In this document: in pieces, positions 3,536 to 19,604 of the stretch
Layout: each line of letters starts with the position of its first letter
Numbering within the stretch: position 1 is the stretch's first letter
From: Microbacterium sp. BR1
Lineage (GTDB): Bacteria > Actinomycetota > Actinomycetes > Actinomycetales > Microbacteriaceae
Direction: 5' to 3'
Assembly (NCBI RefSeq): GCF_002812725.1
Contig: NZ_NMUN01000009.1
Location: 62,001-126,000 of the forward strand
DNA: 64,000 nucleotides
Program-made: the position numbers and the translations under genes
The notes under the pieces: generated by a model
Databases searched by the model: none
Told to the model about the DNA's origin: nothing
The model's input: only the letters and a program-made list of their open reading frames with translations

Positions 3536-4489
3536 ATGAGCGCAATCGAGAACGCGAAACTCACCGTGGTGGGCGCCGGAAGTGTCGGTGCCAGCGTCGC
3601 CTACGCGGCACTGATCCGGGGATCCGCACGGCACGTCGCCCTGTACGACATCGCCGCCACGAAAGTCGAGGCCGAGGTGCTCGATCTCGCCCACGGCACG
3701 CAATTCACGGGCGCGAGCGACATCACGGGCGGCAGTGACATCTCGGTCGCCGCGGGATCGCACGTCGTGGTGATCACAGCCGGCGCCAAACAGAAGCCCG
3801 GGCAGTCGCGCATCGAGCTTGCCGAGGTCAATGCGGGCATCCTCCGCTCGATGATGCCGGACCTGCTCGCGGTTGCTCCCGATGCCATCTACGTGATCGT
3901 GACCAACCCGTGCGACGTCCTGACGGTCCTCGCACAAGAGGCTACGGCGCTGCCGCCCGAGCGCATCTTCGCCTCGGGAACCGTGCTCGACACGTCGCGT
4001 CTGCGCTGGAAGCTCGCCGAGCGCGCCGGGGTCTCGACGTCGAGCGTGCACGCGTACATCGTCGGCGAGCACGGTGACACGGAGTTCCCCCTCTGGTCCA
4101 AGGCCACGATCGGTGCGGTGCCGATCCTCGACTGGGTCGCGCCCGGACACCCGCGGATGTCTCAGGACGAGCTCGACGCGATCGCCGTGGATGTGCGGGA
4201 TGCCGCATACAAGGTCATCCTCGGAAAGGGCGCGACCAACTACGCGATCGGGCTCTCCAGCGCGCGGATCGTCGAGGCGATCCTCCGGGATGAGCATGCC
4301 GTCATGCCGGTCAGCACGGTGCTCCATGACTTCCACGGCATCGACGGGGTCGCCCTCTCCGTGCCCTCGATCGTGAGCTCCCACGGCGCGGTTCCGATCC
4401 GCGAGACGGTCTTCTCGGACAGCGAGCTCGGTCTGCTCCGCAGCTCGGCGAGCGCCCTGCGCACGGTCGCGGATTCGCTTCGGACCTGA
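3536..4489 (+). CDS. ldh: L-lactate dehydrogenase
   Basis: Cytosolic enzyme interconverting pyruvate and L-lactate with NAD. At 317 aa it has the normal length. The Rossmann motif GAGSVGAS is at 13-20, the substrate loop reads KQKPGQSR (Gln rather than the Arg of malate dehydrogenase, with Arg92), and the catalytic pair is Asp152 with His179 in VGEHGDTEF. Arg155 lies in the DTSRLR motif. The gene is downstream of the exporter with a 51-nt gap that holds a -10-like hexamer, so it may have its own leaderless transcript. Confidence 0.93.
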   Translation: MSAIENAKLTVVGAGSVGASVAYAALIRGSARHVALYDIAATKVEAEVLDLAHGTQFTGASDITGGSDISVAAGSHVVVITAGAKQKPGQSRIELAEVNAGILRSMMPDLLAVAPDAIYVIVTNPCDVLTVLAQEATALPPERIFASGTVLDTSRLRWKLAERAGVSTSSVHAYIVGEHGDTEFPLWSKATIGAVPILDWVAPGHPRMSQDELDAIAVDVRDAAYKVILGKGATNYAIGLSSARIVEAILRDEHAVMPVSTVLHDFHGIDGVALSVPSIVSSHGAVPIRETVFSDSELGLLRSSASALRTVADSLRT

Positions 4490-4630
4490 AACGAACAGAG
4501 CACGCCCTGCACGATTCGCCTTCGATATCGCACAGATGCACATCGGGCTTCTTCCCCGGCAGGGGAGCCAGTACGTCGCGCCGCCCCGAATGCCAGGATG
4601 GGACGCAACTCACGGCGGGAGGGATCAGGC

Positions 4631-5702: not shown

Positions 5703-7205
5703 ATGACATACATCCTCGCCCTGGACCAGGGCACGACGAGCACCCGCGCGATCGTCTTCGACCACGCGGGCGGCCGTGTGTCGGTCGGCCAGCTGGAACA
5801 CCGGCAGATCTTCCCCCGGGCCGGATGGGTCGAACACGACGCCCTGGAGATCTGGCACAACACCCAAGAGGTGATCGGCGTCGCGCTCGCCCGCGCCGAC
5901 ATCACCCGCCACGACATCGCCGCCGTCGGCATCACCAACCAGCGCGAGACCGCCATCCTCTGGGATCGGCGCACCGGCACACCCGTCCACAACGCCATCG
6001 TCTGGCAGGACACCCGCACGCAGGAGATCGTCGATCGGCTGGCCGCGGACGGGGGCGTCGACCGATTCCGGGCTCGGACGGGCTTGCCCCTCGCCGCGTA
6101 CTTCTCCGCGACGAAGATCGCCTGGGTGCTCGAGAACGTCCCCGACGCGCGTGAGCTCGCGCACGAGGGGCACCTCGCGTTCGGCACCCCCGACACCTGG
6201 CTGCTGTGGAACCTCACGGGTGGTCCCGAGGGCGGCGTGCACGCCACCGATGTCACGAATGCGAGCCGTACCCTGCTGCTCGACCTGGAGACGCTCGACT
6301 GGCACCCCGAGCTGCTCAGCGCCTTCGACATCCCCGCGTCGATCCTGCCCGAGGTGCGCTCGTCGTCGGAGATCTACGGCACCGTCGAATCGTCCAGCCT
6401 GCTGCGCGAGGTACCCATCGCCGGAATCATGGGCGACCAGCAGGCGGCGACGTTCGGGCAGGCCGCCTTCGCTCGCGGCGACAGCAAGAACACCTACGGC
6501 ACGGGCAACTTCCTGGTGATCAACACGGGAGACACCCCCGTCATCTCCCGCAACGGGCTTCTCACGACCGTGGCCTACCGGCTCGGATCCGGCGAGACCG
6601 CCTACGCGCTCGAGGGCTCCATCGCGGTGACCGGGTCCCTCGTGCAGTGGCTACGCGACAACCTGGGCATCATCTCGTCGGCGAGCGAGGTGGAAGACCT
6701 CGCACTGGCCGTCGACGACGCGGGCGGCGTCATCATCGTCCCGGCGTTCTCGGGCCTCTTCGCGCCCCACTGGCGCCCGGATGCCCGCGGCGCGATCATG
6801 GGCCTCACCCGCTTCTCCGACCGCCGTCACATCGCTCGTGCCGCGCTCGAGTCCGTTGCCATGCAGACGCGCGAGGTCGTCGATGCGGCCGCCACGGACA
6901 CCGACGCTCCGATCACCGAGCTGCGCGTCGACGGCGGCATGGTCGCGAACGACACCCTCATGCAGATGCAGTCCGATGCGCTCGGCATCCCCGTCGTTCG
7001 CCCCGCGATCTCCGAGACGACGGCGCTCGGAGCCGCGTTCGCTGCCGGGCTGGCGGTCGGCTTCTGGTCGGGCCTGCCCGAGCTGTCCGAACTGTGGCAG
7101 GAGGATCGCCGTTGGGAGCCGCGGTCGTCGGAGGCGGAGCGGACCCGGATGCTGGAGCGCTGGCAGAACGCGGTCGCACGAACGCTCGACTGGCCCCAGG
7201 AATAG
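5703..7205 (+). CDS. glpK: glycerol kinase
   Basis: Cytosolic ATP-dependent phosphorylation of glycerol to sn-glycerol-3-phosphate. 500 aa, full length. The N-terminal ATPase-fold motif [13 protein letters not shown] is intact, followed by ITNQRET and the conserved VWQDTRT segment; the second FGGY half contains the LRVDGGM stretch. A GAAGGAG site precedes the start. The gene follows the SorC-type regulator and converges on glpD with 10 bp between the stops. With glpD it forms the pathway from glycerol to dihydroxyacetone phosphate. No glycerol facilitator gene is seen here. Confidence 0.96.
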
Positions 7206-11719: not shown

Positions 11720-11794
11720 AGCGCGTCTCGGCGCGTCCCCACCGCGGCGCGCCCGGCACGACTGTAGGAGGATTCCGCGCCCACCCCTTCCATT

Positions 11795-11838
11795 CGGCAC
11801 CGAGTGTCATTAGCATCTTTTACACCCGCAGGGTGCCG
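11795..11838 (+). promoter_or_regulatory. inverted repeat upstream of peptide ORF
   Basis: CGGCACC (11795-11801) and GGTGCCG (11832-11838) flank an AT-richer stretch containing TTAGCATC and TTTTACACC, the likely promoter zone of the peptide/SDR operon. Operator role is a guess. Confidence 0.3.
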
Positions 11839-11868
11839 ACACAGATGTCCGCCCATAAGGAGCATCCG

Positions 11869-11976
11869 ATGGATATGCAGACGACATCGTCAGAGATTCC
11901 CGATCGTCTCTTCGCTCCGCTCGGCGCACGCAACGAGTGCCCGGTCCACGGATCCGGAGGCGCCCGCACCGTCTGA
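11869..11976 (+). CDS. 35-aa peptide, candidate precursor or leader peptide of the SDR operon
   Basis: Short ORF with a textbook ribosome binding site, AAGGAG six nt before ATG 11869. The product begins MDMQTTSSEIPDRLFAPLG and ends ARNECPVHGSGGARTV, with a single Cys in a short CPVHG-Gly-rich tail. It is followed 106 nt later by the first of three mycofactocin-coupled SDR genes on the same strand. It is not MftA: the C-terminal IDGMCGVY core of that peptide is absent. It could be a ribosomal peptide precursor, a cis-acting leader peptide (a strong stem-loop follows), or a small functional protein. No relative was recognised. Confidence 0.5.
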   Translation: MDMQTTSSEIPDRLFAPLGARNECPVHGSGGARTV

Positions 11977-11995
11977 TCCGTCCCCGACTCCCTCC

Positions 11996-12015
11996 GCGGC
12001 GCGCTGACGCGCCGC
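11996..12015 (+). promoter_or_regulatory. stem-loop between peptide ORF and first SDR gene
   Basis: Perfect 8-bp stem GCGGCGCG / CGCGCCGC closed by the tetraloop CTGA, 19 nt after the peptide stop codon, with no T tract. It could be an attenuator, an mRNA processing site, or simply a strong G+C hairpin. Confidence 0.4.
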
Positions 12016-12082
12016 CCTCGGTCTCGTGAACCCACAACCGAAGAGAGACCCGCCGACGCGCGGGAAGAGAGAGGAGTACGCC

Positions 12083-12913
12083 ATGGGAAGGGTCGAAGGC
12101 AAGGTTGCCTTCATCACAGGAGCCGCACGCGGGCAGGGACGCTCGCACGCGGTTCGTCTCGCACAGGAGGGCGCCGACATCATCGCGGTCGACGTCCTCG
12201 AGGAGATCCCCGGAGCGCCGTACGGACCGGCGACCGAGGAAGACCTCGCCGAAACCGTCGCACAAGTCGAGGCTCTGGACCGTCGCATCGTCGCCCGTAA
12301 AGCGGACGTGCGCGACCAATCGGCACTGACGGCCGCGCTCGACGCGGGCGTCGCCGAACTGGGCCGACTCGACATCGTCTGCGCGAACGCGGGGATCTCG
12401 ACCTCGATGGCCCCGGCGCAAGACCTGCCCGAGGAGATCTGGCTCGACATGATCGACGTCAACCTCAGCGGCGTCTGGCGCACGTGCAAGGCCGCGATCC
12501 CGCACCTGAAGGCCGCGGGAGGCGGGTCCATGATCCTGACGAGTTCGGACGCGGGGCTGTTCGCGTTTCCGAACATCGCGCACTACGTCTCGGCGAAGCA
12601 CGGGGTCGTCGGTCTGATGCGCACCCTCGCCCTCGAGTTGGCGCCGGACATGATCCGCGTCAACAGCGTCCACCCGACGGTTGTGGACACCCCCATGGTG
12701 AACAACGAGGCGACGTTCCGGCTGTTCCGGCCCGACCTCGACAACCCGGGGGTGGAGGACTTCAAAGAGGCCGCCACGATGATCAACGCCCTGCCGATCC
12801 CCTGGGTCGAGGCGGTCGACATCTCCAACGCCGTGCTGTGGCTCGCCTCCGACGAGGCCCGTTACGTCACGGGTGTCGCGCTGCCGGTCGACGCCGGCGC
12901 GTACGCGAAGTAA
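12083..12913 (+). CDS. mycofactocin-coupled SDR family oxidoreductase, copy 1
   Basis: 276 aa. TGAARGQG cofactor motif at 13-20; catalytic Ser154, Tyr168, Lys172 (HYVSAKHG). After the acidic end of beta strand 2 (AVDV) there is an insertion (about 40-58, [16 protein letters not shown]) that marks the TIGR03971-type group; related mycobacterial enzymes hold NAD so tightly that it does not exchange, and need an external redox carrier. Start ATG 12083 with GAGAGGAG upstream. Followed after 19 nt by a close paralogue. The alcohol substrate is unknown; carveol-type dehydrogenases belong to this group. Confidence 0.88.
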
Positions 12914-12932
12914 CGACAGAAAGGGAAACATC

Positions 12933-13766
12933 ATGGGAAGACTGGACGGCAAGGTCGCCTTCATCACGGGAGCTGCGCGGGGCCAGGGTCGCTCGCACGC
13001 GATCCGGATGGCTCAGGAGGGCGCCGACATCATCGCGGTCGATATCTCGCGCCAGATCGAAACGGTGCCGTACGGCATGGCGACGGCCGACGATCTCGCC
13101 GAGACGGTGCGCCAGGTCGAAGCTCTCGACCGACGGATCGTGGCGAGCGAGGCCGACGTGCGCGATTACAACGCGCTGAGCTCCGCCGTGGACGAGGGCG
13201 TCGCGCAACTCGGGCGACTCGACATCGTCAGCGCGAATGCCGGGATCTTCTCCAGCGCGACCGCGGACGAGCTGACCGACACCGCGTGGGACGACATGAT
13301 CGGCGTCAACCTCACCGGCGTCTGGCACACGGCCAAGGCGGCGATCCCCCACCTGAGGGCAGCCGGCGGAGGGTCGATGATCCTCACGAGCTCGACGGCG
13401 GGGATCAAGGGGTTCCCGAACTTCGTGCACTACGTCGCGGCGAAGCACGGGGTCGTGGGAATCATGCGCACGCTCGCACTCGAGCTGGCGCCCGACTTCA
13501 TCCGGGTCAACTCCGTCCACCCCACGAGCGTCGACACCGACATGATCCAGAACGACTCGCTCTACGCGCTCTTCGCGCCCGACCTTCCGGTTGAGGAGCG
13601 CACGCGCGAGACGCTGGGCGGGCGGTTCCAATCACTCAACGCGCTGCCCATCCCGTGGGTCGAGCCGGTCGACATCTCGAACGCGGTGCTCTGGCTCGCC
13701 TCGGACGAGTCGCGCTACGTGACGGGCATCATGCTGCCCGTCGACGCCGGGTCTACGCAGAAGTGA
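12933..13766 (+). CDS. mycofactocin-coupled SDR family oxidoreductase, copy 2
   Basis: 277 aa, close paralogue of the preceding gene along its whole length: same MGR(V/L)(E/D)[16 protein letters not shown] start, the same family insertion (about 40-58, QIETVPYGMATADDL), and catalytic Tyr167/Lys171 (HYVAAKHG). The region around residues 200-240 differs most, with an extra LPVEERTRETLGG segment, suggesting different substrate pockets. AAAGGG lies upstream of ATG 12933. Its TGA stop overlaps the GTG start of the MoxR gene (GTGA), so the two are translationally coupled. Confidence 0.88.
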   Translation: MGRLDGKVAFITGAARGQGRSHAIRMAQEGADIIAVDISRQIETVPYGMATADDLAETVRQVEALDRRIVASEADVRDYNALSSAVDEGVAQLGRLDIVSANAGIFSSATADELTDTAWDDMIGVNLTGVWHTAKAAIPHLRAAGGGSMILTSSTAGIKGFPNFVHYVAAKHGVVGIMRTLALELAPDFIRVNSVHPTSVDTDMIQNDSLYALFAPDLPVEERTRETLGGRFQSLNALPIPWVEPVDISNAVLWLASDESRYVTGIMLPVDAGSTQK

Positions 13767-14704
13767 CGACGAACGAGGTCGCGACGGCGCCCACGGACCC
13801 CGCTGGACTGCAGCGCAGCCGCGAGCGCATCGCTCGCCACCTCGTCGGCCGCGAGCGTGAGTTGGAGCTCACGCTCGCGGCCGTCGCCGCGGGGCGCGAC
13901 ATCGTGCTGGAAGGACCGCCGGGCACGAGCAAGACGACGATCCTCGGTGCGATCACCGAGGAGTGGGGCATCCCGCTGCTCTTCGTCGAGGGCAACGCGG
14001 ATCTAACGCCCGCAAAACTCGTCGGGCACCACAACCCGGCGAGGGTACTGCGCGAGGACTACTCGGCGGACAACTTCGTCCCGGGCCCCCTGGTCGAGGC
14101 GATGCAGCGCGGCGGTTTCCTCTACATCGAGGAGTTCAACCGCGCCCCGGAGGACACCCTCAATACGCTCCTGACCGCCATGGCCGATCGTTCCCTCGCG
14201 ATCCCGCGGGTCGGCCGGATCCGGGCCGCACCGACATTCCGTGTCATCGCGTCGATGAATCCGTACGACAACGTCGGCACGACGCGGCTCTCGACCAGCG
14301 TGCACGACCGCCTCAACCGCCTCGCGGTGGACTACCAGGACGCGGATGCCGAGGAGCGAATCGTCATCCTGCGCACCGAGGCCGACGGCGAACTCGGTGC
14401 GCGCCTCGTCCGTGATGCGGTCGCCGTGACGCGGGCGACGCGCGATCACCCGGACATCCGGCAGGGTTCCAGTGTTCGCGGCGCGATCGACACCGTGCTC
14501 GTGGCCCTCCGTCTCGCCGCGTTGCGTGACCTCGATGACCCGGACTCACCCGGCTACCCCGAGCTCGTCTACGACGCGATGATCGTCGCCCTCTCCGGCC
14601 GTATCCACCTCGACGAGGCGGTGGACGCCACCCCCGAACGCGTGCTGCGCGAGATCTGGGAGGACCACTTCGTCCTCGCGCCGCACCGCGCCGATCCCGG
14701 CTGA
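13763..14704 (+). CDS. MoxR-type AAA+ ATPase
   Basis: 313 aa, starting at GTG 13763 inside the stop of the previous SDR. Walker A GPPGTSKT at 51-58, Walker B FLYIEE at 119-124, sensor-1 region IASMNPYD, arginine finger region STSVHDRLNR. MoxR ATPases act as chaperones that, with a VWA-domain partner, remodel or load cofactors into enzymes. Here the partner follows immediately, and the pair sits among three SDRs, so SDR maturation or activation is the reasonable inference. The stop TGA (14702-14704) is in the same frame as the VWA gene, which continues open from 14705. Confidence 0.88.
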   Translation: MTTNEVATAPTDPAGLQRSRERIARHLVGRERELELTLAAVAAGRDIVLEGPPGTSKTTILGAITEEWGIPLLFVEGNADLTPAKLVGHHNPARVLREDYSADNFVPGPLVEAMQRGGFLYIEEFNRAPEDTLNTLLTAMADRSLAIPRVGRIRAAPTFRVIASMNPYDNVGTTRLSTSVHDRLNRLAVDYQDADAEERIVILRTEADGELGARLVRDAVAVTRATRDHPDIRQGSSVRGAIDTVLVALRLAALRDLDDPDSPGYPELVYDAMIVALSGRIHLDEAVDATPERVLREIWEDHFVLAPHRADPG

Positions 14705-14839
14705 AGAGAGGTCGCGGCCGACACACCCATCCGGGGTGGACGACGCGAGACGTCGACGCGCGGGGCTCCCCTGCGCCGGAAACCGAAGCTCCTGGACGAG
14801 CCGCCCACGCTCTTCGACGCGTCGACGGGCGCGGGCGGA

Positions 14840-15685
14840 ATGGTCCTGCGCGGGGCCGGGCCACCCCGCAGCGCCGGCGCGTCGCGTCCGGGTGGCACCG
14901 CCCGAGGGGAGACGGACGAGGTCGGCGCACTGGTCCCGCTTCCCGACGAGCCGAGCGAGGTCGATCCGTCGGTGCGTGCGCGTGCACGCGAGATCGCGGC
15001 GCGGCTCGCCGTGCCGCGCGCGCGCCGTGACGCGACCGCGCACCGCGGGGTCGGCGACCTGGCGAGCCTGCCCTACCGCGGCGCCTCCGACGACATCGAT
15101 CTGGACCGAACCATCGAGGTGCTCGCCGAACGCCCCGTGCCGGAAGACGAGGACATCGTCGTCCGCGAACGGGTGCGCGCACGCCGCTCGGTCGTACTCC
15201 TCGTCGACGTCTCGGGGTCCATGCGCGGGGAGAGGATCAAGACGGCCGCGGCGACCGTGGGTGCGTTGTCGGCGGAACTGTCCCATGACGACCTCGGTGT
15301 CATCGCGTTCTGGTCCGACGCGGCCGTTCTGCTGAGGCTGGGCGCGCCGGTCCGACCGGGCGAACTCGTCGACGCCATCCTCCGCCTGCCTGCCCGCGGG
15401 CTGACGAACATCGGCTTCCCCCTCGAGCTCGCGGCTCGCGACCTCGCGCGCGTTCCGGCACGGGATGCGCGGGTCATCCTGCTCTCGGACTGCGTGCACA
15501 ACGCGGGTCCGGATCCGCGTCCCCTCGCGGCGCGGCTCCCCCGGCTCGACGTGCTGCTCGACGCGACCGGTGAGAAGGACGTCGAACTCGGCCGAGAGCT
15601 CGCCAAACGGGGGCACGGCCTCTGTCGCGTCATCCACGATCATCGCGATGTGGCGCCCGCGATCGGGCGGATCTTTCGCTCGTAG
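14840..15685 (+). CDS. VWA-domain protein, MoxR partner
   Basis: 281 aa from the first ATG. The MIDAS metal site DVSGSM is at residues 123-128, then a VWA fold through the FWSDAAV, LPARGLTNIG and ILLSDCVHN segments. The reading frame is open with coding-like codon use back to 14705, encoding for example PKLLDEPPTLFDAS, but contains no ATG, GTG or TTG between the MoxR stop and 14840. The real protein may therefore start at a rare codon (CTG 14771 is one option) or be a read-through product. Function inferred from the family: substrate adaptor for the MoxR ATPase. Confidence 0.8.
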   Translation: MVLRGAGPPRSAGASRPGGTARGETDEVGALVPLPDEPSEVDPSVRARAREIAARLAVPRARRDATAHRGVGDLASLPYRGASDDIDLDRTIEVLAERPVPEDEDIVVRERVRARRSVVLLVDVSGSMRGERIKTAAATVGALSAELSHDDLGVIAFWSDAAVLLRLGAPVRPGELVDAILRLPARGLTNIGFPLELAARDLARVPARDARVILLSDCVHNAGPDPRPLAARLPRLDVLLDATGEKDVELGRELAKRGHGLCRVIHDHRDVAPAIGRIFRS

Positions 15686-15705
15686 CTTCTTTCTGCACCT
15701 GGTGC

Positions 15706-15711
15706 CATAAT
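15706..15711 (+). promoter_or_regulatory. possible -10 element before third SDR gene
   Basis: CATAAT about 55 nt upstream of the SDR start, in the 79-bp gap after the VWA gene. It would allow separate expression of the third SDR. Confidence 0.35.
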
Positions 15712-15764
15712 CCGAGGGACGGCCCGATGACGAGCCTTCGAAATCTGACAGGGAGGTCACAACC

Positions 15765-16583
15765 ATGACTGGTCGACTGCAGGGAAAAGTGGCATTCATC
15801 ACCGGCGCGGCTCGAGGGCAGGGCCGGGCGCACGCCGTCAAGCTGGCGCGCGAGGGCGCGGACATCATCGCCGTCGACCTCGCCGGTCACATCGACTACG
15901 TGCCCTACGACTCCCCCACTCCCGAGGACCTCGCCGAAACCGTGCGACTGGTCGAGGCGGAAGACCGACGGATCGTCGCCACCATTGCCGACGTGCGTGA
16001 CGGCGCCGCGCTACGGACGGCCGTGGACGAAGGTGTCGCCGCCCTGGGCGGCCTCGACATCGTCGTCGCCAATGCCGGCATCTGCATCCCGGAAGCCTGG
16101 GACGCCATCACACCCGAGACGTTCCGCTTCACGATGGAGACCAACGTCGACGGAGTGTTCAACAGCGTCGTCGCGGGAGCTCCGCACATCATCGCGGGCG
16201 GCCGCGGCGGCGCGATCGTCCTGACCAGCTCGTACGCGGGCAAGAAGATGCAGCCGTTCATGGTGCACTACACCGCCAGCAAGCACGCCGTCACGGGAAT
16301 GGCCCGCGCCTTCGCCGCAGAACTCGGGCGCCATAACATCCGTGTCAACAGCATCCACCCGGGTGGTGTGAACACGCCCATGGGTTCGGGGACCATGGTC
16401 GAGGCACTGACGGCGGCGGGCGAGACGTCGCCGTCGCTCAACGGCATGGGAACCCCCTTCCTCCCCGTGTGGGCCGCCGAGCCCGAGGACATCGCCAACG
16501 CCGTGGCTTTCCTGGTGTCCGATGACGCTCGCCTGATCACGTCCGAGCACCTCAGCATCGATCAGGGCATGCATACCTTCTGA
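15765..16583 (+). CDS. mycofactocin-coupled SDR family oxidoreductase, copy 3
   Basis: 272 aa with a strong GGGAGG site before ATG 15765. TGAARGQG at 13-20, family insertion about 40-57 (GHIDYVPYDSPTPEDL), catalytic Tyr169 and Lys173 (HYTASKHA). More distant from the first two copies, with a different C-terminal half (PMGSGTMVEAL, LPVWAAEPED). Same operon direction; 79 bp after the VWA gene. Convergent with pntB. Confidence 0.87.
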   Translation: MTGRLQGKVAFITGAARGQGRAHAVKLAREGADIIAVDLAGHIDYVPYDSPTPEDLAETVRLVEAEDRRIVATIADVRDGAALRTAVDEGVAALGGLDIVVANAGICIPEAWDAITPETFRFTMETNVDGVFNSVVAGAPHIIAGGRGGAIVLTSSYAGKKMQPFMVHYTASKHAVTGMARAFAAELGRHNIRVNSIHPGGVNTPMGSGTMVEALTAAGETSPSLNGMGTPFLPVWAAEPEDIANAVAFLVSDDARLITSEHLSIDQGMHTF

Positions 16584-16647: not shown

Positions 16648-18060
16648 TCAGAGGTACCGGAGAATGTCGTCGACTCTTTCCTTGGCGTCGCCGAAGAGCA
16701 TCTGGGCGTTTTCGCGATAGAACAGCGGGTTCGGCACGCCGGCGTAGCCGGATGCCATCGACCGCTTGAAGACGATCACGTTGTGCGCCTCCCAAACCCG
16801 CAGCACCGGCATGCCGGCGATCGGGCTACTCGGGTCCTCCGCCGCAGCGGGATTGACGGTGTCGTTCGCCCCGATCACGAGCACGACGTCAGTCGTCGCC
16901 AGGTCGTCGTTGATCTCGTCCATCTCGAGCACGATGTCGTATGGCACCTTCGCTTCGGCCAGCAGCACGTTCATGTGACCGGGAAGGCGGCCCGCGACCG
17001 GATGGATGCCGAACCGCACATCCACGCCGCGTTCGCGGAGCTTCTGAACGAGATCGGCGACGCCGTGCTGGGCCTGCGCGACAGCCATGCCGTATCCGGG
17101 GGTGATCACGACGCTGGACGCCGAGACGAGCATGTCTGCCGCGGACTCCGCATCGATTTCACGGTTGTCGCCATAGTCCTCGTCGCCGGTGGTCGGCGCC
17201 TCGATGCCGAACCCGCCCGCGATCACCGACAGGAACGAGCGGTTCATCGCCTTGCACATGATGTAGCTGAGGTAGGCGCCGGACGAGCCCACGAGCGCAC
17301 CGGTGACGATCAGCAGGTCGTTGTTCAGCAGGAAGCCGGCCGCGGCCGCAGCCCAGCCCGAGTAGCTGTTGAGCATTGAGACGACCACCGGCATGTCGCC
17401 GCCCCCGATCGAGGCGACCAGGTGCCAGCCGAGCGCGAACGCGAGCACCGTCACCAGCACGAGCAGCCACAGCTCGGGCGTGATCACGTACCAGACGGTG
17501 AGAGCGACGAACAAGACCAGGGCGCCGAGATTGAGGACATTCTTCCCGAAGAGGACGAGCGGCTTGGATGAGATACGTCCGGAGAGCTTGAGGAATGCCA
17601 CGATCGAGCCGGTGAAGGTCACGCCGCCGATGAACACGCCGATGAATACTTCGGCGTGGTGGATGTCGGCCAGAGTTCCCTCGAGCCCGATGTCGTAGAG
17701 CGCTCCGTTCCAGCCGACGATCACGGCGGCGAGGCCGACGAATGAGTGCAGCAGGGCGATGAGCTCCGGCATGCCCGTCATCTCCACCACGCGCGCCCGC
17801 CACAAGCCGATCGCTCCGCCGACGAGTACCGCGACGACGAGGAGGGTCAGGCCGAACGCGGCCTGCGGTTGGGTCCACGCGCCCGCGACCGTGACCCACA
17901 CCGTCGCGGCGAGCGCGATCGCCATGCCCACGATCCCGAATGCCACCCCGCGTCGGCTGGTCTCGTGCTTACGGAGCCCGGCGAGGCTCAGGATGAACAG
18001 CAGCGCCGCGACGATATAGGCCGCGCTCGCGACCGCGGTGGCCGTCTCGGGGGCGATCAT
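16648..18060 (-). CDS. pntB: NAD(P) transhydrogenase beta subunit
   Basis: Inner-membrane subunit of the proton-driven hydride transfer between NADH and NADP+. 470 aa. About eight or nine membrane helices fill the first 280 residues, then the NADP(H)-binding domain III with [17 protein letters not shown] and the [18 protein letters not shown] stretch. Its ATG overlaps the pntA stop (ATGA), so the subunits are co-translated in the usual alpha-beta order. Confidence 0.95.
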
Positions 18061-19604
18061 CGATTCTGGCCCTTCTGGAACATCGCGAGCATTCTCCGCG
18101 TGACCGCGAACCCGCCGAAGATGTTGATGCTCGCCAGCAGCACGCCTACCGCGGCCAGGATCTGCACGGTGAGATCGGGCGCCATGATCTGCACCATGGC
18201 ACCGACGATGATGATGCCCGAGATCGCGTTCGTCACGCTCATGAGCGGTGTGTGCAGTGCGTGGGCGACATGGCCGATGACGTAGAAGCCGACGACGACC
18301 GACAGCGTCAGCACGAGGAAGTGCTGCGGCAACGGCGGCGGAGCGAACGCGCAAACGGCGAACAGAACCGCGATGCCCGCCGCGACCAGCCACCCGCGCG
18401 CACGCGACGACATGGGCTTCTTCAGTTCCGCGGCAACGGACGGCGCGGCCACAGTCTTCTGCGGCGCGGCCGAAACCTGCACGGGCGGCGGCGGCCACGT
18501 GACCTCGCCCCTGCGGACGACCGTGACGGTACGCTGCACGACATCGTCGAAGTCCAGGTGCAGCTGCCCGTCTTTGCCGGGGGTGAGGAGCTTGATCAGA
18601 TTCACGAGGTTCGTTGCGAACAGCTGCGAGGCCTGCTGCGGCAGCCGACCGGGCAGATCGGTGAAGCCGAGGATCACCACGCCGTTGTCGGTCACGACCC
18701 GCTCGCCCTCGACCGACCCCTCCACATTTCCGCCCTGCGCAGCGGCCATGTCGACGATGACACTGCCGGGCTTCATCCTCGCGACGTCGGCCGCCGTGAT
18801 CAAGCGCGGCGCCGCGCGACCCGGGATCAGCGCGGTCGTGATGATGATGTCGACATCCGCCGCCTGCTCGGAGTAGATCTCCGCCGCCCGCCGGTCATAC
18901 GCCGCAGTGGTCGCCTTGGCATACCCGTCGGTCGAGACCTCCTTGGCCTCATCGGGCACGACGACCTCGAGGTACTCCCCGCCGATCGACGCGACCTGAT
19001 CAGCGACCTCCGGACGGGGATCGGTCGCCCGCACGATCGCCCCGAGGCTCGATGCGGCGCCGATCGCGGCCAGACCCGCCACACCCGCGCCGGCGACGAG
19101 GACCTTGGCAGGCGGAACCTTCCCGGCCGCGGTCACCTGACCCGTGAAGAAACGCCCGAACTCGTTCGCCGCCTCGATCACCGCGCGATACCCGGAGATG
19201 TTCGCCATCGAGCTGAGCACATCCATCGACTGCGCCCGAGAGATCCGGGGCACCGCATCCAACGCGATCGCCGTGATCTCCCGCGTAGCCAGCGACTCCA
19301 CGAGGTCGGACCGCAGTGCCGGGCTCAGCAGGGCGATCAACGTCGCACCGTCCGCCAGCCGGGCGACCTCCTCGGGCGTCGGCGCGTCGACCTTCAGCAC
19401 GATCATGGACGCCCACGCCTCCGAGGCCGAGACGACGGTGGCGCCGGATGCCGCATACGCGGCGTCCGGGAACGATGACGCCGCTCCTGCTCCTGCTTCG
19501 ACGACGACGTCGTAGCCGAGAGCGATCAGCTTCGTGATGGTTGCAGGGGTCGCAGCCACCCGCTTCTCGCGGGGGCCTTCGGCAACGATGCCAATCTGTG
19601 ACAC
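18057..19604 (-). CDS. pntA: NAD(P) transhydrogenase alpha subunit, fused form
   Basis: 515 aa. The N-terminal NAD(H)-binding domain I starts at [16 protein letters not shown]; the nucleotide-binding core contains [17 protein letters not shown]. After a Pro/Ala-rich linker near residue 390 there are about four membrane helices, so the alpha1 and alpha2 parts are fused as in E. coli. Start is GTG 19604 with GAGAGG upstream. It forms an operon with pntB. The SDR cluster next door handles NAD-linked redox; a functional link is possible but only positional. Confidence 0.94.

Follow-up and report, generated by a model that had tools for sequence, protein, structure and literature searches.

In the genome of Microbacterium sp. 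BR1, a 35-codon open reading frame (ORF) heads a row of dehydrogenase genes that also includes the genes for a MoxR-type ATPase and a VWA-domain protein. The locus raises the question of what this small ORF and the MoxR/VWA pair have to do with the dehydrogenases. It lies in a 64,000-nucleotide (nt) stretch of contig NZ_NMUN01000009.1, here called the window, whose first letter is position 1. An earlier note, made from the window sequence alone, had described the ORF followed by genes in the order SDR-SDR-MoxR-VWA-SDR (SDR, short-chain dehydrogenase/reductase), without mycofactocin genes. It had proposed that the ORF could encode the precursor of a different carrier or a regulatory leader and that MoxR and VWA could mature or reload the SDRs. 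We observed that the MoxR/VWA pair travels with mycofactocin-coupled dehydrogenases across Actinomycetota. We consider it likely that the row is a detached piece of a mycofactocin (mft) operon under MftR control, that the ORF is a relic of an mftA start, and that MoxR and VWA jointly act upon the dehydrogenases.

A dehydrogenase operon detached from the mycofactocin cluster

The described gene order was borne out, with the ORF and all five genes lying on the plus strand between positions 11869 and 16583. The three SDRs (SDR1, 12083 to 12913; SDR2, 12933 to 13766; SDR3, 15765 to 16583; all plus strand) scored 405.3, 413.1, and 341.7 bits, respectively, with the model for mycofactocin-coupled SDRs (TIGR03971; cut-off, 300 bits), in agreement with the family assignment of the earlier note. 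Genome-wide, four SDRs exceeded this cut-off, and three of them are those of the operon. The solved chain nearest to SDR1 was 5ej2, a carveol dehydrogenase (E, 1.1e-108), and SDR1 is close to solved chains of mycobacterial TIGR03971 members that bury NAD. In Haft 2017 (PMC5264612), the insertion of TIGR03971 is described as burying a non-exchangeable NAD in the mycobacterial members.

The absence of mycofactocin genes does not extend to the genome. The search for mftA-F that the earlier note had suggested revealed a complete set, mftA-G plus mftR, on another contig (C4). The mftA gene (G000:C4:728894) encodes an MftA of 52.5 bits (TIGR03969; cut-off, 25) and adjoins mftR (C4:728176-728739; 266.9 bits; cut-off, 224.9), while MftB, C, D, E, F, and G, each above its curated cut-off, are encoded beside it. 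The locus shares with the described mycofactocin system (Haft 2011, PMC3023750) the SDR family TIGR03971, an mft cluster in the genome, and an MftR-type operator at the same distance. It differs in that the dehydrogenase operon is detached from mftABC and in that a MoxR-VWA pair is not part of the described system. In the available portion of that paper, both TIGR03971 and TIGR03989 are listed as families whose occurrence correlates with mycofactocin, and neither the word ATPase nor the word AAA appears.

An MftR-operator-like site, TCCATTCGGCACCGAGTGTCATTAGCA (11789 to 11815, plus strand), begins 80 nt before the ORF start. According to PMC8728441, the footprint of M. smegmatis MftR covers positions -79 to -53 relative to mftA, with TCCATTCTGGCACTCGATGCCATATAT as the proposed operator, Omft. 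The window site resembles this footprinted operator in sequence and position. In the 3.8-Mb genome, the pattern TTCGGCACNNNGTGYCATTA is matched perfectly at two places, the mftA promoter and 11789 to 11815, and the distance from the operator core to the ATG is 73 nt at the 35-amino-acid (aa) ORF and 72 nt at the strain's own mftA. Six further matches each carried three mismatches; a reversed control pattern, with up to three mismatches allowed, also matched six times (all mismatch levels pooled), and three-mismatch sites were therefore regarded as background. The site is identical in M. lacus (27 of 27 positions). Upstream of mftA, 28 of 48 related mftA-bearing loci carried the strict operator core, and 40 carried the looser palindrome GGCA-N5-TG[CT]CA. 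With an Omft-like site near -79 of the first gene and MftR encoded in the genome, the operon belongs, judged by sequence, to the MftR regulon. A second, degenerate site (TTCTGCACCTGGTGCCATAA; 15691 to 15710, plus strand) has two mismatches to the pattern and lies 74 nt before SDR3, so that SDR3 may be a separate transcript. A strict operator core within 400 nt after VWA was present in 7 of 75 related loci.

MoxR and VWA travel with mycofactocin-coupled dehydrogenases

The MoxR-type AAA+ ATPase of the window (13763 to 14704, plus strand; CbbQ/NorQ/GvpN-like, AAA_5 match) is encoded from a GTG start that overlaps the SDR2 stop. Its partner (14840 to 15685, plus strand) matches VWA_2 and CoxE-type models and carries a metal ion-dependent adhesion site (MIDAS) motif. 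Gene neighbourhoods were compared in 80 named related loci, the best 80 of 146, and in 22 further, distant loci; loci were read for 20 of the 22 phylum genomes with MoxR other than the strain's own (G581 and G800, which have MoxR matches, were left out). The stretches of the 80 loci contained at least one of mftA-F in 61 cases, an SDR in 73, and VWA in 76; the 19 without mftA-F include some short contigs. In five of six loci examined closely, the first SDR began at most about 260 nt after mftC, and in the sixth, M. lacus, the operon is detached, as it is in the window. Judged by tblastn similarity, the gene directly before MoxR was SDR-like in 73 of the 80 loci (among them broken copies in L067 and L072 and one cut by the contig end in L032), mftC in one, mftB in one, and none of these in five. 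In the 22 further loci it was an alcohol dehydrogenase (ADH) gene in 15, an SDR gene in 6, and neither in 1. Altogether, a dehydrogenase of either kind directly preceded MoxR in 94 of 102 loci.

Nineteen dehydrogenases were scanned against family models (3 from the window and 7 plus 9 from other loci), the remaining SDRs being assigned by tblastn similarity. All 19 passed the threshold either of TIGR03989 or of one of the mycofactocin-coupled SDR families. The scanned ADHs (7 of 7 and 5 of 5) were all above the TIGR03989 cut-off, and four SDRs from distant loci were above that of TIGR04504/NF040491 (two) or TIGR03971 (two). The dehydrogenase neighbours of MoxR thus represent two unrelated folds, SDR and zinc-type ADH. 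On a tree of 44 hand-chosen MoxR rows, trimmed to 300 residues around the P-loop, the ADH-linked proteins did not form one clade, and at least two changes are needed.

VWA directly followed MoxR in 76 of the 80 loci, and the other 4 end within about 300 nt of MoxR. In the distant loci, it directly followed the best MoxR in 18 of 22, and a second MoxR lies between the two in L169 and L170. MoxR and VWA form one ORF of 620 to 653 aa in L160, L161, L166, and L168 (4 of 96 sequences with both), and these fused ORFs adjoin a TIGR03989 alcohol dehydrogenase. The SDR before MoxR in L067 has a large internal deletion (around 5760 to 5980) with the gene ends joined in frame, which is either natural or an assembly effect.

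Co-occurrence with mycofactocin was counted in 295 genomes of the genus (VWA at E ≤1e-20) and in 249 genomes of the family and 296 of the phylum (MoxR at E ≤1e-60). In the genus, VWA was found in 15 genomes and mftA in 24, and all 15 were shared. MoxR was present in 14 family genomes and mftA in 16 (12 shared), and the corresponding numbers for the phylum were 23 and 36 (21 shared). The hypergeometric P values (genus, 2.2e-19; family, 1.8e-15; phylum, 1.7e-20) are uncorrected for kinship and overstate the association because the genomes are not independent. The exceptions in the family, G358 and G425, possess the pair and dehydrogenases and showed no mftA match and no mftC above the cut-off. 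Those in the phylum were G582, with the weakest MoxR match (1.2e-66, 46% identity) and no dehydrogenase found beside MoxR, and G712, which is 89% complete in 580 contigs. The G358 locus (Homoserinimonas L153, 3058 to 13048) has kept mftG, mftR, SDRs, MoxR, VWA, mftD, and mftF; this genome is rated 100% complete, and it is possibly that of a user without its own precursor pathway. In G425 (L154), mftG, mftR, SDRs, MoxR, and VWA are present.

Motifs and predicted folds of the pair

Walker A/B and SSVRG were conserved at 95% or more in 103 MoxR sequences, and the MIDAS residues D123, S125, S127, T189, and D217 were kept in at least 97% of 96 VWA sequences, the window proteins being included in both sets. 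CbbQ and NorQ chains took Foldseek ranks 1 and 2 for the MoxR model (pLDDT, 88.2; E, 4e-18 and 6e-18), with about 24% identity, and the Walker A/B motifs together with the predicted MoxR fold point to a protein of the CbbQ/NorQ type. For the VWA model (pLDDT, 80.7), the first PDB match was chain G of the NorQD complex (E, 4e-10; TM, 0.51), presumably NorD; a search of the VWA protein against PDB sequences gave no match at an E of 0.01. With a VWA domain that has an intact MIDAS and is encoded adjacent to MoxR, the window protein shows the features of a NorD/CbbO-like partner. As in the NorQ/NorD and CbbQ/CbbO pairs, a CbbQ/NorQ-type AAA+ protein and a MIDAS VWA protein are encoded by adjacent or fused genes, but the clients here would be NAD-burying dehydrogenases rather than nitric oxide reductase or Rubisco. 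Two named families were rejected for the window MoxR. GvpN (TIGR02640) gave its best NCBIfam score, but these 83.6 bits are far below the cut-off of 266.8 bits, and dehydrogenase and mft genes surround MoxR; the MadB AAA ATPase (NF047784) scored 42.9 bits with a cut-off of 475 bits.

A proposed activase and its alternatives

A pair tied to such dehydrogenases bears on the question of how enzymes that bury NAD permanently acquire it and stay working. We propose that an MftR-type operator, either copied from the mftA promoter or split away from it, came to precede the SDR genes and the MoxR-VWA pair. MftR would repress both mft and the SDR/MoxR-VWA operon, and upon its release the SDRs would be produced along with MoxR-VWA. 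With VWA as its guide, the MoxR ring would then use ATP to pull on the dehydrogenase and lift the lid that covers the NAD site, whereby NAD could be loaded or a dead-end enzyme repaired. The bound NADH would subsequently be oxidised in place, with the electrons passing to mycofactocin. The pulling step is proposed because of the analogy with NorQD, for which a VWA finger that enters the NorQ pore and a stretched NorD linker are described. We give an even chance to the idea that MoxR-VWA is a hitherto unrecognised mycofactocin accessory of many actinobacteria, namely, a dedicated ATP-driven activase by which the NAD buried in mycofactocin-coupled dehydrogenases of two unrelated folds is loaded or repaired. 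Of the earlier suggestion that MoxR/VWA matures or reloads the SDRs, the association has thus gained support from co-occurrence and co-localisation across Actinomycetota, while the activity itself stands as a proposal. If it is correct, the MoxR/VWA pair would have a new client class, the nicotinoproteins, and may be a missing part of the mycofactocin redox system. A conserved AAA+/VWA pair tied to NAD-burying enzymes in many actinobacteria also offers a direct genetic handle.

Several observations speak against this reading. Contact between MoxR-VWA and the dehydrogenases is a prediction, and the VWA fold match is modest (20% identity at the TM given above), with other VWA domains following closely. 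Neither mftA-F nor an SDR was nearby in 4 of the 80 loci, and L040 and L096 carry the pair within the mft cluster, their stretches lacking an SDR. The 18 of 22 distant loci with VWA directly after the best MoxR leave four others, and L163 and L165 had no VWA match. The strict operator core before mftA is limited to the 28 of 48 loci mentioned. Finally, the pair is lacking in 9 of the 24 mftA-positive genomes of the genus, in others, and in all 8 sampled mftA-positive genomes of family f6, which are probably mycobacteria, where the mycofactocin system has mostly been studied. The many mftA-positive genomes without the pair indicate that mycofactocin use does not, as a rule, require it.

The pair could instead serve mycofactocin biosynthesis (for example, MftC or MftD), its place beside the dehydrogenases reflecting shared regulation. 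The strong co-occurrence with mftA would suit this role, as would L040 and L096 and the position of MoxR after mftB in L062. However, G358 and G425 keep dehydrogenase-MoxR-VWA with no mftA match and no mftC above the cut-off, which argues for the dehydrogenase rather than biosynthesis as the client. The pair also stays with the dehydrogenases in detached operons, and biosynthesis does not generally need it, since 9 of the 24 mftA-positive genus genomes do without it. We regard a biosynthetic role as unlikely. Insertion of a metal into the client enzyme, as by NorQD for nitric oxide reductase, appears improbable. The best structural matches (CbbQ/NorQ and the NorQD chain) and the zinc-type ADHs among the clients (TIGR03989) would favor such a function, but what both client folds share is a tightly held NAD and mycofactocin coupling, and the SDR clients are not known to require a metal.

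No published link between mycofactocin and MoxR/VWA was found in the literature searched, although most subscription papers lie outside this search and a report may exist elsewhere. Mycofactocin was not co-mentioned there with von Willebrand or with MadB, and the term AAA ATPase was absent from the mycofactocin papers among the matches listed. In the parts of the sources available, mycofactocin and MoxR appeared together in separate rows of one expression table, and carveol dehydrogenase and MoxR stood apart within an expression table.

The 35-aa ORF as a probable relic of an mftA start

The ORF at the head of the operon (11869 to 11976, plus strand; MDMQTTSSEIPDRLFAPLGARNECPVHGSGGARTV) is preceded by a strong Shine-Dalgarno sequence and lies, as mftA does, behind an MftR-type operator. 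The stretch AAGGAGCATCC-ATGGAT--GCA-AC, comprising the Shine-Dalgarno sequence and the first codons, is common to the ORF and the strain's own mftA. The resemblance to a gene for an MftA precursor (TIGR03969) thus covers the operator distance, the Shine-Dalgarno sequence, and the first codons, but the ORF lacks the MftA core IDGMCGVY and did not exceed 25 bits with the TIGR03969 hidden Markov model. No Pfam or NCBIfam match was obtained at an E of 0.001.

Comparison with M. lacus (L020) separated the ORF from its surroundings. The homologous ORF of this species has 42 aa (MDSQTTPSQPEPSANPLRSLVSPAARCAARPCHAPTGGARTA) and no CPVHG. The remaining 5′ untranslated region is identical at 47 of 52 positions and the stretch between the ORF and SDR1 at 82 of 105, whereas ORF codons 9 to 26 agree at 27 of 54. 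At codon positions 1 and 2, the identity is 66% in the ORF versus 97.6% in SDR1, and the four-fold sites of SDR1 are 63% identical. The ORF therefore diverges at these positions at about the neutral rate and appears unconstrained. Its frame is also of a common kind: 77 ATGs in the window, within and outside genes, have a strong Shine-Dalgarno sequence, 17 of which open ORFs of 25 to 60 aa, and the probability that 35 codons at 67% GC remain free of stops by chance is about 0.46. Because such ORFs are common in the window, a 35-aa ORF with a good Shine-Dalgarno sequence is not special by itself.

Other operons without adjacent mftABC have a start at the same place that leads into an unrelated peptide, of 54 aa in M. 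salsuginis (L023) and of 45 aa in Homoserinimonas (L046 and L153), and in L089 and L093 the operator is followed by the SDR with no ORF between. Taken together, the sequence comparisons indicate that the 35-aa ORF is probably a relic of an mftA start and not a conserved peptide. It would be the remnant of an mftA translation start that runs into unrelated downstream sequence, left over from the separation of mftABC and this portion of the mft operon, and its product would have no conserved function. An mftA start would in this case have persisted as a misleading small ORF. Three points fit a relic less well. The frame has been kept between the two species (net indel, 21 nt), the tail GGART is conserved in M. 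lacus, which a pure relic need not keep, and blastn of the 3′ half of the ORF gave a best E of 0.03 beyond the window's own stretches and M. lacus. In L154 (G425; 4425 to 4559), an ORF ending in ...EKASIESLCSVY occupies the same place behind an Omft-like operator and is apparently a variant or decayed mftA.

The leader suggested earlier would be a cis-acting upstream ORF that tunes SDR expression whatever its amino acid sequence. The strong Shine-Dalgarno sequence, the frame kept in M. lacus by net in-frame indels, and the start codons kept at the mftA position in M. salsuginis and Homoserinimonas are consistent with this, but the sequences after the start are unrelated among these species, L089 and L093 have no ORF, open frames of this size are common, and the 106 nt between the ORF stop and SDR1 argue against direct coupling. 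Such a leader seems to us quite improbable. That the ORF encodes a new redox-carrier precursor or a metal-binding peptide with a CPVHG motif is very improbable, and this idea was rejected: the ORF heads a dehydrogenase operon, and Cys and His near the C terminus also occur in the M. lacus homologue, but the motif itself is not conserved, codon positions 1 and 2 diverge neutrally, the MftA core is missing, no maturase gene was found beside the ORF, and the genome encodes an ordinary MftA within a complete mycofactocin cluster on another contig, which is where the idea fails. Both observations that the earlier note had named as counting against its proposal, an ORF that is not conserved and a complete mft cluster in the genome, were thus made. 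The scan for a conserved CPVHG-like tail that it had called for covered the small ORFs of 99 loci with the pattern C[PA]-x-H near the C terminus; the matches were scattered, and none was a recognisable homologue except the ORF itself (L004). A search with the peptide in the 294 other genus genomes found no match at an E of 0.01, a search so insensitive that it also missed the M. lacus ORF. An origin of the 3′ half of the ORF from an MftC tail, an idea taken from L036 (...GGRHSRTA), was dropped after blastn of 11760 to 12090. A possible RNA hairpin after the ORF (GGCGCG..CGCGCC) was not kept in the M. lacus alignment as inspected by eye.

Further observations at the locus

The start of VWA at 14840 may not be the true one, which possibly lies up to about 45 codons upstream. 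Most of the homologues compared begin earlier, several of them about 40 codons before the window's start, and positions 14705 to 14839 form an in-frame open stretch without ATG, GTG, or TTG. MftC is extended at its C terminus in L052 and L028, and in a fragment from L039; the extension, encoded by the 3′ end of mftC, contains a PLAGF-like motif and has a Cys-rich tail, for instance SCAGESCGEGTCGCS. Directly behind the operon, the convergent pntAB genes (16648 to 19604, minus strand) encode the beta and alpha subunits of NAD(P) transhydrogenase, both above the cut-off.

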